This document shows positions 5,834 through 22,631 of a stretch of 40,707 bases of DNA, piece by piece. Position 1 is the stretch's first letter. Every line of letters begins with the position of its first letter. The stretch comes from an uncultured Erysipelotrichaceae bacterium (GTDB lineage Bacteria; Bacillota_I; Bacilli_A; Erysipelotrichales; Erysipelotrichaceae), in NCBI GenBank assembly GCA_927435855.1, contig CAKMJZ010000053.1, positions 1 to 40,707 of the forward strand, read 5' to 3'. The position numbers and the translations under genes are program-made. The notes under the pieces are model-generated. The model searched no databases. It worked only from the letters and a program-made list of their open reading frames with translations, and was not told the origin of the DNA.

Positions 5834-5909
5834 TGGTGGAGCTGAAGGGACTCGAACCCTCGACCCCAACGCTGCCAGCGTTGTGCTCTTCCAGCTGAGC
5901 TACAGCCCC
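5834..5909 (-). tRNA. tRNA-Ala (anticodon GGC), CCA encoded
   Basis: Cloverleaf folded by hand: GGGGCTG/CAGCTCC acceptor, GCTC...GAGC D-arm, CAACG-CTGGCAG-CGTTG anticodon arm, GAGGG-TTCGAGT-CCCTT T-arm, ACCA end. Confidence 0.95.
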
Positions 5910-5916
5910 AAATTCT

Positions 5917-5993
5917 TGGTCGGGACGACAGGATTTGAACCTGCGACCTCTTGCTCCCGAAGCAAGCGCACTACCAAGCTGTGCTACGTCCCG
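5917..5993 (-). tRNA. tRNA-Pro (anticodon CGG), CCA encoded
   Basis: CGGGACG/CGTCCCG acceptor; CTTGC-TTCGGGA-GCAAG anticodon arm; GGTTCAAAT T-loop; ACCA end. Confidence 0.95.
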
Positions 5994-6010
5994 TTTTAAA
6001 CAAAAAAAAT

Positions 6011-6086
6011 TGGCGCGCCCGACAGGAATCGAACCTGTAGCCTTTTGAATCGGAATCAAACGCGCTATCCGTTGCGCCACGGGCGC
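6011..6086 (-). tRNA. tRNA-Arg (anticodon CCG), CCA encoded
   Basis: GCGCCCG/CGGGCGC acceptor; TTTGA-TTCCGAT-TCAAA anticodon arm; ACAGG-TTCGATT-CCTGT T-arm; GCCA end. Confidence 0.95.
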
Positions 6087-6099
6087 ACAATTAATAAAA

Positions 6100-6175
6100 T
6101 GGTGGACACTAAGGGACTCGAACCCCTGACCCTCTGCACGTCAAGCAGATGCTCTCCCAACTGAGCTAAGTGTCC
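6100..6175 (-). tRNA. tRNA-Val (anticodon GAC), CCA encoded
   Basis: GGACACT/AGTGTCC acceptor; TCTGC-TTGACGT-GCAGA anticodon arm; AGGGG-TTCGAGT-CCCTT T-arm; ACCA end. Confidence 0.95.
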
Positions 6176-16719: not shown

Positions 16720-17253
16720 TTAGATAAGTGTCGGATCGTTTTTGATCCGATTGAAAATGACGATATACATAATTGCAAATATTACCGCAACGATTAATGA
16801 AAACAAACCCAGAAGTGGAGCAATTACAATAAACAAGGTAGCAGCTGCGGCTGATATCGCATGATATTTGAATATTTGATACAAGCGGTCTGCTTCACTT
16901 GGATAAGACATCCTCGGCTTCAAATCAATCACCGCAAGCGTAAGTAAGTATAACAAGTATAATTCGATAATCGTGATTACTACGCCTACTGCCCAGTTGA
17001 ACAACGTCATTTGAGCCATGGCTGTGCTAATACCCATGACATTCATGACGAAGAAGATGACAAATATGATGGTTAGCATCTTAGCAAGTGCGGATACATT
17101 ATCAAACCTGATAGAAGCATCAATCAATTCTTTCGCACCTAAGGAAATAAACAAATACCCAACAAAATCAGGCAATAAAGGCAATATTGTCGATCCCAGT
17201 GTAATATTAAAATTAAAGAAGATAAAAATAAGACCGATAAATATTCTTTTCAT
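16720..17253 (-). CDS. Multi-TM membrane protein of unknown function
   Basis: Hydrophobic; likely start MKRIFIGLIF at 17253 with GGGGGAAG-like RBS; TAA stop lies in the SD region of the FtsX gene. Confidence 0.6.
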   Translation of the reverse strand: MKRIFIGLIFIFFNFNITLGSTILPLLPDFVGYLFISLGAKELIDASIRFDNVSALAKMLTIIFVIFFVMNVMGISTAMAQMTLFNWAVGVVITIIELYLLYLLTLAVIDLKPRMSYPSEADRLYQIFKYHAISAAAATLFIVIAPLLGLFSLIVAVIFAIMYIVIFNRIKNDPTLI

Positions 17254-17351
17254 ACTTCTTCCCCCTGATTGTTCATTTATTACTTTATCACAATCAAAAA
17301 GAAGGGGCAACCCTTCTTGAAACATCCATGGAGATTAAACGATTCATCACA

Positions 17352-18401
17352 TTATGAGTTACGAAGCGTAAACATATGAACCGGTATTTTGCGCTGTTCG
17401 CACCAACTGACCAACGTACGATCCAGAATCAAATCACATGAACCGAATTCTTCAATATGACTTACCCCCAACATCAACATGATCATCATCAGTTCATCTT
17501 TCCAGTTCTCTATGACCGAGACGGCATACTTGACCCCACCGCTATGCAACAAGCTCAATATCGTACCGGAAAGACCGATCGCTTTTGCTCCTAAAGCAAA
17601 GGCTTTGGCCATATCTAACGGATGGCGAATTCCACCGGAAGCAATCACGTCGACTTTATCCGATAAAGCATAACAATCCATGAGTGACTCAACGGTCGAT
17701 AGTCCCCATTCATCTAAGTATTCAAGAGCAACAGGCCGCCTAGCGTTTTCAATGCGAATGAAATTCGTTCCGCCTCGTCCGCTGACATCCACAGTTTTCA
17801 CTTTTAGTTGAATGAGTTGCTTAACTGTCTGACGACTCATACCGAATCCGACTTCCTTAACGATAACCTCAACTCCGACATTTTTAACGATGTTGGAAAT
17901 ATTACTTTCCCAAAGATGAAAATCACGATCCCCCTCTGGCATTACAATCTCCTGAGGAGCATTGAGGTGAATCTGTAGCGCATTAGCGCTAAGAATTTCT
18001 ACTGCTTTTAGAGCGTCGTCCAAACTTCTATCCGCACCGATATTGGCAAATATTATTCCATCCTCATTGGTCTGACGGACGATGCGAAAACTTTCTTCCA
18101 ATGTCGTATCTTTGAGCGCTGAACTTAACGATCCGGTAGCCATAGCTAATCCAGTTGCCTTTGCAACCTGTGCAAGCTGGGCATTTATCTTCTTAGCCGT
18201 ATCACTTCCTCCAGTCATTGCATTAATATAGAATGGAACATTTAAATGTAAGCCAGCAATCTTCGTATGTAAGCTGATTGACTCTTTATTGATAGGAATG
18301 GAACGATGGACAAAGCGAATCCGATCAAAATCAGATACCGGATTTTCCTCAATCTGTTGTAGCGCTAAGCGCATGTGATCATCTTTTCTAATACTGCTCA
18401 T
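17352..18401 (-). CDS. fni: Type 2 isopentenyl-diphosphate delta-isomerase (FMN-dependent)
   Basis: RKDDHMRLAL, FYINAMTGGS, VDVSGRGGTNF, IASGGIRHPLDMAKAFALGAKAIGLSG; ATGA overlap with the upstream gene. Confidence 0.95.
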   Translation of the reverse strand: MSSIRKDDHMRLALQQIEENPVSDFDRIRFVHRSIPINKESISLHTKIAGLHLNVPFYINAMTGGSDTAKKINAQLAQVAKATGLAMATGSLSSALKDTTLEESFRIVRQTNEDGIIFANIGADRSLDDALKAVEILSANALQIHLNAPQEIVMPEGDRDFHLWESNISNIVKNVGVEVIVKEVGFGMSRQTVKQLIQLKVKTVDVSGRGGTNFIRIENARRPVALEYLDEWGLSTVESLMDCYALSDKVDVIASGGIRHPLDMAKAFALGAKAIGLSGTILSLLHSGGVKYAVSVIENWKDELMMIMLMLGVSHIEEFGSCDLILDRTLVSWCEQRKIPVHMFTLRNS

Positions 18402-19414
18402 ACAACCTCCCTCTTGGCTATCGTTATAGTCAATGGCATGATGCCTTCTCTTAATAATATATCACTAATATCTAGTGCATGTGGGAAAAATGCTATTGCA
18501 CAATCACCACCTCCTGCACCGGATGATTTTCCAGAGCCATTATGTTGTATACACACTCCAATAAACGCTTTAATCAAGGGTGTTTCAATCATCAAATCGG
18601 TGAGTATTTCGAGTTGGTTCAACCAATCTCTATATCGACGAATGCCAATTAGAAAATCTTTTACATCAACGCTTTCAATCATATCACTCACAATACTCTT
18701 TGATTGATTCAACAATAGAGCATACTTCTCACTATTTCTATACTCATATACCCAATCTACTTGACTCTGCGTTGAAACCGTTTCTCCAGTCCAACCAACA
18801 ACCCAATGTAACTTAAAAGGAAAATCTATATAAGAAATTGACAATTGAGCCCAATCGCGTGCAATCATATCCGAAATAGATCCTGACATATCCAAATCAG
18901 CAAAACGGGTATATCGAATGACTCCACCAAATATTGCGGCTGCCAAATCACCATAAGAACCACTTACTTTCAGTTGTGACTGACTGATTACGCAAAGTTT
19001 AAATATAGAAATTTCATCAAGGTTCAGTAGGTAAAATCGGTTGAGCCCTTTGATAATTGCCGCAGTGATAGCACCACTTGATCCCAATCCTAGCTTTCTG
19101 CCATCTACACTATCTAAATCACTTTCAATGGTGATGGATACTGCGGAGTGAAAGCGCTTTTTTTCTTTAAGTAATCGATAAAAAACATTTAGAGCTGAGA
19201 CGGCGTATTTCCAATATTGATCTGAATGACTCAAATCATCGAAAATGATTTCTCTATCACTATTCGCGCTTTTTAGTATAAACTGGGTTGAAGATTCAAT
19301 CGATACCCGAATGCACCGCTGCGTAGCCATGATAATAGCCGGATGACCGGGATGAACGACCGCATATTCACCAGCAATATACAATTTACCCCAACCAATC
19401 CCTTCAGCTTTCAT
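18398..19414 (-). CDS. Phosphomevalonate kinase (GHMP family)
   Basis: GKLYIAGEYAVVHPGHPAIIM, KLGLGSSGAITAA, NGSGKSSGAGGGDCAIAF; adjacent to MVK/MvaD and fni; 11-nt overlap with the fusion gene. Confidence 0.92.
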   Translation of the reverse strand: MKAEGIGWGKLYIAGEYAVVHPGHPAIIMATQRCIRVSIESSTQFILKSANSDREIIFDDLSHSDQYWKYAVSALNVFYRLLKEKKRFHSAVSITIESDLDSVDGRKLGLGSSGAITAAIIKGLNRFYLLNLDEISIFKLCVISQSQLKVSGSYGDLAAAIFGGVIRYTRFADLDMSGSISDMIARDWAQLSISYIDFPFKLHWVVGWTGETVSTQSQVDWVYEYRNSEKYALLLNQSKSIVSDMIESVDVKDFLIGIRRYRDWLNQLEILTDLMIETPLIKAFIGVCIQHNGSGKSSGAGGGDCAIAFFPHALDISDILLREGIMPLTITIAKREVV

Positions 19415-21263
19415 TCAGAATCGTCGCCCCCTCTCCTGGGTTGCAAATGATTATACCCTTCTGATCAATTAGCGATGCAAGTTCATCCACAATCACTCGC
19501 ACTTGTGACTGACGAGTAAGTATCTTAACATTAGGCCCGGCATCCATGGTGGCATAACATTCCAATCCTCTTTTATTCAACTCATCCACAAAACGAAGAA
19601 CTGTCAATGTTTGCGGTTGAAAATATATAATCGGAGGAATGGCGGCCATCATGCTTGCATGCATACGTAAAGCATTACTTTGGGTAATTTCACCAAGAAC
19701 TTTAAAATCATGTTTCTTTATAGCTTTCTTTATATTTTCAATATCTATTTGCGCATTCTCTACCCAAGCCGGATAATAGGGTGAAGTATAGACGGTCCTT
19801 CGCATAGCCTCCTTGCTCGACACATCTTTCTTTTCTCTATTGATGATAACCACAATCATCGCAATATCCCAATCAGCACTGTCAAATTCATATGCATAAG
19901 GTATCTCATCTTTTTGCCAGATAACAAACCCACCGAAAAGGCTGCGTGTCGCTGATCCAGAGCCAAAGCGTGTGATTTCTGACAACTTCTTCTTTGATAA
20001 ATTCAGATTGAAATAACGGTTTGCGGCGGTCGCCAATGCCGCAAATCCTGATGCACTGGAAGCTAAACCGGCAGCTGTTGGAAAATTATTGACTGAAGCG
20101 ATACGAATGTAGTTTTTTCTTTGACTTAATTGGCGAAAGCGGTCAATAAATCGGAAGATTTTCTCTGACTCGCTCTTCCCTTGTTTTACGCCATCAAGAA
20201 CAAACTCATCTTTATCCGATGTCTCTATGATCGTATCCGTATAGAGCTTATCTAAGGTCAATGAGAGTGAACTATTGTACGGAATCACCTGCTCTTCATC
20301 TTCTTTACCCCAATATTTAACCAATGCAATATTAGCATGTGCACGGGACTCAACTCTTCGTACGTTAAGATCTAACACCCATAAATTTTCATCATTCCAT
20401 CGCTCAATAACCGCATCTCGCACGATTTCATCTTGACACAAAGCAATCACACAACCCCCACGACCGCCACCTGTCAGTTTTGCGCCAAGGGCACCTACAG
20501 CCAGTGCTTTATCAACTAATTGATCAATCAGCGGATGACTGACGTACAATAGTTTCAATAAACTTTGCGCTTGAATCATTTTCAAGCCCAGTTCTTTCAT
20601 GTTGCCTTCTTCAATCAATCGAATCGAACTCTCACTTAACTTACCCAATTGATCAAGAGAGTCACGTGATTTATCGTCTTTTTTAATCAATTCCGCAATA
20701 TCCGCAACCGCTTGCTTTGTTGATGCAACAATACACGTATCCCGAATCACTAGATAACCGTGTAAACGGGATTGAATCGGTACAATACCTTTTCCACGTT
20801 TAAATAAGACTGGCGTTTTACTATTAACAACGACTCCATCCAATCCTGAAGGATTGCCATGGGCAATAGTTTCGCCGATATGAACTAATTCCAATAACTG
20901 TTCTTGGGTCAAGAAAATCTGCTTATAATGATACATCGCTTTGATGATTGATGATACAACTGCCGCACTTGAACCCATGCCTCGTCCAGAAGGAATTTGA
21001 CTGTCAATCGTGATTTTCAACGTTTCATCAATTTTCAATCTTTTTTTAACTTCTGTAATGACCTCACACACATTATTCAGTTGTGTCGGCGCATTCATCA
21101 TCTTCCCTTTGTATAATGAGCAATCTAAAAAGTCGGCTTTGCTTTTCTCTACAGTAGTCGTAACTGAATGCGAAAAAAGCGGGATTGCGATGGCTCCATA
21201 ACCATACACGACCGCATGTTCACCCATCAATATGACTTTCCCATGACTTAACGATTCATTCAT
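19404..21263 (-). CDS. Mevalonate kinase :: diphosphomevalonate decarboxylase fusion protein
   Basis: One uninterrupted 619-aa frame. MVK half: GKVILMGEHAVVYG, GRGMGSSAAVV, GNPSGLDG, KLTGGGRGGCVIAL. MvaD half: RAHANIALVKYWGK, NFPTAAGLASSASGFAAL, SGSATRSLFGGFVIW, MDAGPNVKILT. Confidence 0.95.
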   Translation of the reverse strand: MNESLSHGKVILMGEHAVVYGYGAIAIPLFSHSVTTTVEKSKADFLDCSLYKGKMMNAPTQLNNVCEVITEVKKRLKIDETLKITIDSQIPSGRGMGSSAAVVSSIIKAMYHYKQIFLTQEQLLELVHIGETIAHGNPSGLDGVVVNSKTPVLFKRGKGIVPIQSRLHGYLVIRDTCIVASTKQAVADIAELIKKDDKSRDSLDQLGKLSESSIRLIEEGNMKELGLKMIQAQSLLKLLYVSHPLIDQLVDKALAVGALGAKLTGGGRGGCVIALCQDEIVRDAVIERWNDENLWVLDLNVRRVESRAHANIALVKYWGKEDEEQVIPYNSSLSLTLDKLYTDTIIETSDKDEFVLDGVKQGKSESEKIFRFIDRFRQLSQRKNYIRIASVNNFPTAAGLASSASGFAALATAANRYFNLNLSKKKLSEITRFGSGSATRSLFGGFVIWQKDEIPYAYEFDSADWDIAMIVVIINREKKDVSSKEAMRRTVYTSPYYPAWVENAQIDIENIKKAIKKHDFKVLGEITQSNALRMHASMMAAIPPIIYFQPQTLTVLRFVDELNKRGLECYATMDAGPNVKILTRQSQVRVIVDELASLIDQKGIIICNPGEGATILNES

Positions 21264-21278
21264 AATAAAACGCTCCTG

Positions 21279-22631
21279 TTATAGTAAGTATTGAACCAAA
21301 AACGGTGCTGCATAAAGTGACATAAACTGAACACCGTAGTTAACTCCTAGTTTATTTAAAGTCCCACTAATAAGTGCGATTAGAAGTACCCCGAATATAT
21401 TGATTAACCCTGCATCCATATATGCCAATAGTAGTATAAATGCGACAAACAGTCCTAACACGGCTTCATGAGGTATGCGCTTGAGGATAAAATTAGTAAA
21501 GCTATTGGCAAAACGACTGATAAATGTGTAAGTGATCGCGGATGCGATTACAGCCGCAAATATGACAACGATTACAAAATGCGATGATGAAAGGATATGG
21601 TGAAGATTGTTTTCAAGGGTTAGTATCGGCGGGGCATTGAACAGTGCACTCCCTGGACCGATAGCGACCGGTGATAATGGTATTCCCAAAGCTAACAGTG
21701 GGATGATGATTTGAGATAAATACGTCGATTGGGCCATCGCCGCTTTTGCGACGATGCTTATTTGAGCACTTTCCGTAACATCTTTGCTGCGCTTGGCAAC
21801 CAGTTCCCCAATCAGAATAATCAATCCAACCGGACTTAGTACAAAGAGGAAATTAGTGATCAATGCCGAAAGCGATGCACTTTGAAGTTCTTTTTTTGTT
21901 AATATCTTAAATGGATTCAATGTCTTAATCTTTTCATCATGCTTGTTTAACTTAATCGTTTTATAATCCGATACTTGCATCTGACTATAGGCATTCTTGT
22001 TTAACAGTGAGAATAATGAGTGGACCAACGGTCCAATCGTAATAGCCAAGAAGAACGACGTAGTGATATTTACATTGGTAGGAATTAAACCGATGCCCCA
22101 ATATAGATGGCGCAGACTTTGAAATAGAATGGCCAGTGGTAATATACTTAGCAATGACAGTGTCCTTGCCTTTGAGGTAAGTGATAAAAAGATAGCACCA
22201 CCAATAAACAAGTATCGAGCATACGGTGTGATTGACGTTGCATAAGGAGCTAGAAGGTTAGCTAAAAGCAATGAAAGTGGTACAGATATGGCAACACTGA
22301 TCAAACCGCCTGCCGCCATTTTCTTAATCGTCATGGCCGCCATTCCTTGATTCTTCAGATGAATCGCATTTTCGATCATCGGACTCGACAAAACTCCACC
22401 AGGAAGGCCAGCAAGTGCCGTAGGCATAGCATTAGTAAAGTTTAGGGTAACGATTGCTGAAATAAAGAAAGCAAGCACGACCATCGGTTGGACTTGCGCT
22501 AAGACAATGACTAATGTAACCGGCAGTAAAACTGAGGTTTCATCCGTGCCCGGAATAAAGCCTATGAATATATAAATCGCAGCAGCAATCAAAATTGCTG
22601 CTAACATTTGTATAATTAGTATCGTATCCAT
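21279..22631 (-). CDS. TctA-family tripartite tricarboxylate transporter-like permease
   Basis: 450 aa, about 11-12 TMs; GFIPGTDETS and LPGGVLSSPMIENAIHLKNQG resemble TctA loops; 15 nt before the MVK fusion. Confidence 0.7.
   Translation of the reverse strand: MDTILIIQMLAAILIAAAIYIFIGFIPGTDETSVLLPVTLVIVLAQVQPMVVLAFFISAIVTLNFTNAMPTALAGLPGGVLSSPMIENAIHLKNQGMAAMTIKKMAAGGLISVAISVPLSLLLANLLAPYATSITPYARYLFIGGAIFLSLTSKARTLSLLSILPLAILFQSLRHLYWGIGLIPTNVNITTSFFLAITIGPLVHSLFSLLNKNAYSQMQVSDYKTIKLNKHDEKIKTLNPFKILTKKELQSASLSALITNFLFVLSPVGLIILIGELVAKRSKDVTESAQISIVAKAAMAQSTYLSQIIIPLLALGIPLSPVAIGPGSALFNAPPILTLENNLHHILSSSHFVIVVIFAAVIASAITYTFISRFANSFTNFILKRIPHEAVLGLFVAFILLLAYMDAGLINIFGVLLIALISGTLNKLGVNYGVQFMSLYAAPFLVQYLL

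Follow-up and report, generated by a model that had tools for sequence, protein, structure and literature searches.

A mevalonate kinase-diphosphomevalonate decarboxylase fusion in one genus of Erysipelotrichaceae, in a candidate mevalonate salvage operon headed by a TctA-family permease

The closest described counterpart of the locus presented here is the mvaK1-mvaD-mvaK2 (+fni/idi2) operon of Gram-positive bacteria such as Enterococcus, Ligilactobacillus and Erysipelotrichaceae, with which it shares its enzymes, its gene order and its small gene overlaps. Unlike in that operon, the genes for mevalonate kinase (MVK, mvk) and diphosphomevalonate decarboxylase (MvaD, mvaD) are a single gene, the genome has no HMG-CoA reductase (HMGR), HMG-CoA synthase was not found in it, and a TctA-family permease heads the operon. 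Over their full lengths, the two halves of the fused gene align with the free-standing enzymes, and the fold, motifs and catalytic residues are those of free-standing mevalonate kinase (2x7i, 2oi2) and MvaD (6e2s, 3qt5), but here the two are joined by about 4 residues. Enterococcal mvaE is itself a fusion, of a thiolase with HMGR. IspDF, treated in a review (PMC13001223), joins non-consecutive steps; it resembles the present protein in that both fuse neighbouring pathway genes for such steps, whereas the partners in this case are MVK and MvaD.

For the permease, the nearest described relatives are the TctA components of tripartite tricarboxylate transporters (PF01970), which it matches over the whole length, although it is linked to mevalonate rather than tricarboxylate genes. 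Other TctA proteins usually act with TctB and a binding protein. The substrate proposed for it is the same as that of a mutant MCT1 (F360C) and of an evolved JEN1, but the candidate here is natural and bacterial; MCT1 and JEN1 belong to protein families other than TctA. Several bacteria import mevalonate, the only importer known before being the mutant mammalian MCT1 (F360C), and yeast JEN1 has been evolved into a mevalonate importer (PMC12405511). Incomplete isoprenoid pathways of bacteria have been reviewed, and a lower-mevalonate salvage operon is not described in the available portion of that review (PMC13001223); other corynebacteria combine the MEP pathway with an incomplete mevalonate pathway (PMC13244258). 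The open-access PMC papers searched yielded no bacterial gene for mevalonate uptake and no TctA protein tied to mevalonate.

The window, i.e. the whole stretch of 40,707 nucleotides that was analysed (contig CAKMJZ010000053.1 of assembly GCA_927435855.1, from an uncultured Erysipelotrichaceae bacterium), has the following features at this locus, given in the order in which they are read:

21279 to 22631, minus strand: TctA-family permease, 450 aa, first gene of the operon and candidate mevalonate importer (Pfam PF01970, E=7.7e-23)
19404 to 21263, minus strand: mevalonate kinase-diphosphomevalonate decarboxylase fusion, 619 aa (TIGR00549 and TIGR01240 above cut-off; kept in 6 of the 7 genomes of the genus)
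20364 to 21263, minus strand: mevalonate kinase half of the fusion, aa 1-300 (aligned to S. aureus MVK 2x7i, E=1.9e-44)
19404 to 20357, minus strand: diphosphomevalonate decarboxylase half, aa 303-619 plus stop codon (aligned to E. faecalis MvaD 6e2s, E=3e-82)
18398 to 19414, minus strand: phosphomevalonate kinase (PMK, pmk), 338 aa, overlapping the fusion by 11 nt (TIGR01220, 235.9 bits against a cut-off of 165.7; 3k17 and 1k47 in the PDB)
17352 to 18401, minus strand: type 2 isopentenyl-diphosphate isomerase (IDI, idi2), 349 aa, overlapping the PMK gene by 4 nt (TIGR02151, 368.9 bits against a cut-off of 281.3)
16720 to 17325, minus strand: small membrane-type protein, 201 aa, after the isomerase; conserved in the genus, operon membership uncertain

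The run from 22631 to 17352 on the minus strand is read here as a module for the import and salvage of mevalonate, with the TctA protein as the candidate importer, at a probability of roughly 0.7. Mevalonate is the candidate substrate of the permease on the grounds of gene neighbourhood and phyletic pattern.

The fused gene itself is a frame of 619 codons, uninterrupted from its ATG (19404-21263, minus strand). The first-pass annotation of this DNA had proposed one open frame holding a complete MVK and a complete MvaD, and the profile searches bear this out. Specifically, residues 6-275 match the full-length NCBIfam mevalonate kinase model TIGR00549 (271.7 bits, cut-off 163.05) and residues 306-593 the full-length diphosphomevalonate decarboxylase model TIGR01240 (354.1 bits, cut-off 171.35), while Pfam assigns GHMP_kinases_N/C plus MVD-like_N/MDD_C. 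The decarboxylase half falls below the cut-offs of the models for the phosphomevalonate and bisphosphomevalonate variants (NF040704, 161 of 475; NF040847, 62 of 560). The signature motifs of both halves had been called intact, and indeed the residues concerned are invariant in our alignment (A3): K9, E131, D142 and the GSSAA loop (G97-A101) in the kinase half, and KYWGK (K316-K320), the SSAS loop (S402-S405), R440 and D574 (in MDAGPNV) in the decarboxylase half. We take K9, E131, D142 and GSSAA, as well as KYWGK, R440 and D574, to be the catalytic residues of their families, K9 being the Lys of GKVILxGEH, E131 and D142 the Glu and Asp of the E...NPSGxD motif, and GSSAA the ATP-binding loop; the roles in the kinase are those of Lys13, Glu193 and Asp204 of rat MVK. 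In the S. epidermidis decarboxylase, the residue changed in 4dpw is Asp283, going by the PDB title. As judged from the sequence, the catalytic motifs are thus retained in both halves, and each is proposed to work like its free-standing relatives.

An AlphaFold model of the fusion shows two complete GHMP folds and no extra domain. The near absence of a linker that had been claimed for the protein agrees with this model, in which a strand at 294-298 closes the kinase and a strand at 303-320 opens the decarboxylase, leaving a joint of about 4 residues. The alignment behind the model is shallow, with six rows, of which two are neighbouring genes read through one stop codon; the model has a mean pLDDT of 81.6 and a pTM of 0.67, at which the relative placement of the halves is unsupported. 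Foldseek places the decarboxylase half at a TM-score of 0.84-0.87 to solved MvaD structures.

A fused reading frame in a draft genome may of course stem from an error, and a sequencing error hiding a stop or start between the halves had been named as something that would undo the observation. This is rejected on the evidence of independent open frames across the genus. The fusion occurs in 6 of its 7 genomes (G000-G006); the frame is fully open in four of them, i.e. the window's own genome (G000) and G005, G004 and G002 (82%, 77% and 74% identical to it, respectively), and in G006 (L034) the sequence starts inside the kinase tail at the contig edge and continues in frame. In G001 (L031, HGW-Firmicutes-10) the only break in the fusion is a stretch of N in the scaffold; a frameshift as its cause was rejected. 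The seventh genome, G003, has two separate genes with 38-50% identity. An internal start that would give a separate MvaD is not supported either: no in-frame ATG, GTG or TTG is common to the five junctions, so that a separately translated decarboxylase is unlikely. The lower pathway in the genus is under purifying selection; dN/dS is 0.04-0.12 in both halves where dS is unsaturated, values that are rough because several pairs are near dS saturation, and the joint is looser.

Outside the genus the fusion was not encountered. It is absent from the other 30 lower-pathway genomes of the family (36 such genomes out of 276), from 24 further lower-pathway genomes in the class draw, and from the loci inspected in Lactobacillales, Actinomycetota, Proteobacteria and Planctomycetota; the phylum draw overlapped the class draw and therefore contributed little on the spread of the fusion. 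Long frames in the GC-rich loci L054, L055 and L060 were considered as the same fusion and rejected, being overlapping frames instead. No description of an MVK-MvaD fusion was found in the open-access PMC papers searched, so the concern that it might be common or already characterised has not materialised within this sample and this literature. We regard the fusion as genuine and, within what was searched, confined to a single genus; as a novelty it is modest. Fusions of other kinds occur in the same pathway. In Bifidobacterium subtile and B. tibiigranuli (L067:8682-11468 and L071:8634-11102), a single frame of 929 and 823 aa, respectively, encodes phosphomevalonate kinase together with type 2 IDI, and each part exceeds its NCBIfam cut-off; this is another lower-pathway fusion. 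A third kind of mevalonate-pathway fusion is found in a Planctomycetota bin (L053:4594-6921), where HMGR and mevalonate kinase share a 776-aa frame (436 and 235 bits).

The likely origin of the fusion can be read from its relatives, where mvk, mvaD, pmk, idi2 is the general order and mvk and mvaD touch or overlap. In G229, G205 and G481 these two genes even share a reading frame, separated by a single TAA, and within the genus the fusion would have arisen when the stop codon separating the adjacent genes was lost. That PMK is encoded by the next gene, overlapping by 11 nt, had been correctly noticed (the overlap is 19404-19414 exactly). The emphasis on a fusion that skips the intermediate enzyme does not hold up: since pmk comes third, after the neighbours mvk and mvaD, in most relatives' operons, the joining of steps 1 and 3 follows from gene order, and it is a by-product of the ordinary mvk-mvaD-pmk-idi2 arrangement with no functional message. 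The likely gain would be 1:1 expression of the two enzymes, whose ratio the fusion probably fixes.

At the downstream end of the operon, the small protein at 16720-17325 has counterparts of 73-78% identity at the same place in L029, L031 and L034 and no Pfam match above cut-off. A search of the window with Rfam gave no riboswitch at the operon; its only hits were four tRNAs, clustered at 5837-6175 on the minus strand.

At the upstream end stands the permease, which ends 15 nt before the fusion starts. It is a many-helix membrane protein that scores 81.2 bits against PF01970 (gathering threshold 28.9) over model positions 1-417 of 423, and no TctB or TctC partner gene is adjacent to it within the window. 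By sequence no solved structure is close to it, and a Foldseek search with the TctA model gave no credible PDB match. Within the genus it is 90-96% identical, exceeding the fusion's own conservation. In G000-G005 its gene stands immediately upstream of mvk, and in G006 a contig end truncates it. Homologues of 57-66% identity occupy the same position in G003, G192, G228, G229, G293, G351, G451, G481, G524, G570, G582, G613, G628 and Helcococcus sueciensis, and one of 40% does so in G425 and G473; in the latter two (L104 for G473, L103 for G425) permease, mvk and mvaD stand together, and pmk and idi are not beside mvk-mvaD. In three Actinomyces species a 49-51% homologue closely follows idi and is encoded on the opposite strand, and the Actinomyces loci L055, L057 and L061, with this TctA-like gene adjoining idi, come with ispG and the lower pathway and without HMGR. 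In the family, a permease homologue of any kind was found in 14 of 276 genomes, and all 11 with at least 59% identity bear the lower pathway; in the class draw no homologue was found in genomes lacking the lower pathway, except for a broken scrap in G322.

The operon-linked permease and HMGR all but exclude each other. Among 60 lower-pathway genomes from the family and class draw, 20 have a linked permease and no HMGR, 35 have HMGR and no linked permease, 4 have neither and 1 has both (Fisher p=4.8e-11, a value that is too small because the genomes are related). The genome with both is G582, where HMGR (L102, G582:C49) is on a 5.6-kb contig with 51% G+C, compared with 44% for the mevalonate contig, in an 83%-complete bin; this contig is possibly contamination. 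The genomes with neither (G207, G588, G227 and G013) may be incomplete or have another supply of mevalonate. On a tree of the two enzymes, at least 5 changes of the permease label fall on supported branches. In random sets of 5 independent pairs HMGR differed in the opposite direction in 3.4, in the same direction in 0.1 and not at all in 1.5, a result that is consistent yet not significant alone (median p 0.25) because the pairs are too few. Outside the class, the three Actinomyces and Helcococcus have the permease without HMGR, i.e. the same direction.

In the genus itself it is the upper pathway that is missing. HMGR (PF00368) had zero matches in G000-G006, including G002 (98% complete) and G005 (99%), and HMG-CoA synthase (TIGR01835) had none above cut-off in these genomes, its weak matches being short, far below the cut-off and probably ketoacyl-synthase-like proteins; the positive controls of these searches (Lactococcus, archaea and other genomes of the family) were matched. 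With neither enzyme found, the known route to mevalonate would be closed to the genus. It is highly improbable that an upper pathway is present and was missed through incomplete assemblies. The window's own genome is about 70% complete and G001, G003, G004 and G006 are at 62-79%, which leaves room for missed genes; however, the two nearly complete genomes are likewise without the upper pathway, HMGR is also absent from G351, from G425 and G473 (99%), from the three Actinomyces and from Helcococcus, and seven absences in seven genomes of the genus are unlikely by chance. The MEP pathway marker ispG was detected in 6 of the 7 (G000 and G002-G006). G425 and G473 (both 99% complete) lack ispG as well as HMGR and are predicted to be obligate users of mevalonate, i.e. 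auxotrophs.

Taken as a salvage module, the operon would work as follows. The solitary TctA-family permease would take up external mevalonate, the kinase half of the fusion would convert it to phosphomevalonate and the separate PMK to diphosphomevalonate, the decarboxylase half would yield IPP, and the type 2 IDI would supply DMAPP and so balance IPP and DMAPP, the activities being those predicted from sequence. With IspG present, salvage would supplement the MEP pathway in the genus, and relatives such as G425 and G473 would rely on it. The lower pathway could also be fed by some other route or by the passive entry of mevalonolactone. Beyond the genus, we lean towards the view that a clade of solitary TctA-family permeases is the bacterial mevalonate importer, belonging to a salvage operon with mvk-mvaD-pmk-idi2 in Erysipelotrichia-type Firmicutes, Helcococcus and Actinomyces, with some carriers having the MEP pathway too, others depending on import, and the enzymes fused in one genus.

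The first-pass annotation was sound in seeing a conserved fusion beside PMK in an operon, and overlooked both the missing upper pathway and the permease at the head of the operon. Without these two elements the locus could pass for a plain lineage-specific fusion in an ordinary biosynthetic operon, the TctA gene being an unrelated neighbour such as a citrate-type permease. PF01970 is after all named for tricarboxylate transport, and the relatives with a single TAA between in-frame genes show how small the step to a fusion is. Such a reading is nevertheless unlikely, given that an ordinary pathway needs HMGR, absent from all seven genomes of the genus, and that the permease is met again in this position in at least 4 families and beside the operon in Actinomycetota, and is anti-correlated with HMGR. 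Another proposal, made in the earlier annotation and compatible with salvage, is that the fusion and PMK form a channelling MVK-PMK-MvaD complex. The fusion plus the overlapping pmk gene implies co-translation, and MVK, PMK and MvaD are all GHMP-fold proteins, but overlapping genes are also frequent in the operons of fusion-less relatives and a joint of about 4 residues gives no recruiting domain; such a complex is therefore improbable and its proposal speculative.

Granted a role in this pathway, the permease might still export, or import something related such as 3-hydroxy-3-methylglutarate, phosphomevalonate or an isoprenoid precursor. A homologue (37%) in G014 is relevant in this respect, as it sits with HMGR, CoA-transferase III and AtuA-like genes, a setting that 3-hydroxy-3-methylglutarate would fit equally well. 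The run concerned (L097, G014:C41, 5709-11824, minus strand) comprises CoA-transferase III, AtuA, an AtuA ferredoxin-like protein, HMGR, a small protein and the TctA-like permease; a small protein precedes the permease homologue in G013 and G230 as well. G014 has no mvk-mvaD match, its HMGR is called degradative by TIGR00532, and by its gene content the run looks like one for the catabolism of mevalonate or HMG. Even so, an exporter or a different substrate is quite unlikely for the operon-linked permease: mevalonate is precisely what is missing where it occurs, 3-hydroxy-3-methylglutarate would be unusable without HMGR, and an exporter would be senseless without mevalonate synthesis. Mevalonate is also the substance common to the G014 context and the salvage operon, a hint as to what the permease may carry.

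As a case of stop-codon loss between neighbours, the fusion is neat but modest. The wider meaning lies in the permease: it is conserved, goes with the lower pathway and is present where the means of making mevalonate are lacking, which makes the question of a bacterial importer directly testable. If the proposed role is true, it would (i) imply that microbial communities exchange mevalonate, which then serves as a source of the cell-wall lipid carrier, (ii) offer a way to feed mevalonate to engineered microbes and (iii) explain why some bacteria with an MEP gene retain half of the mevalonate pathway.
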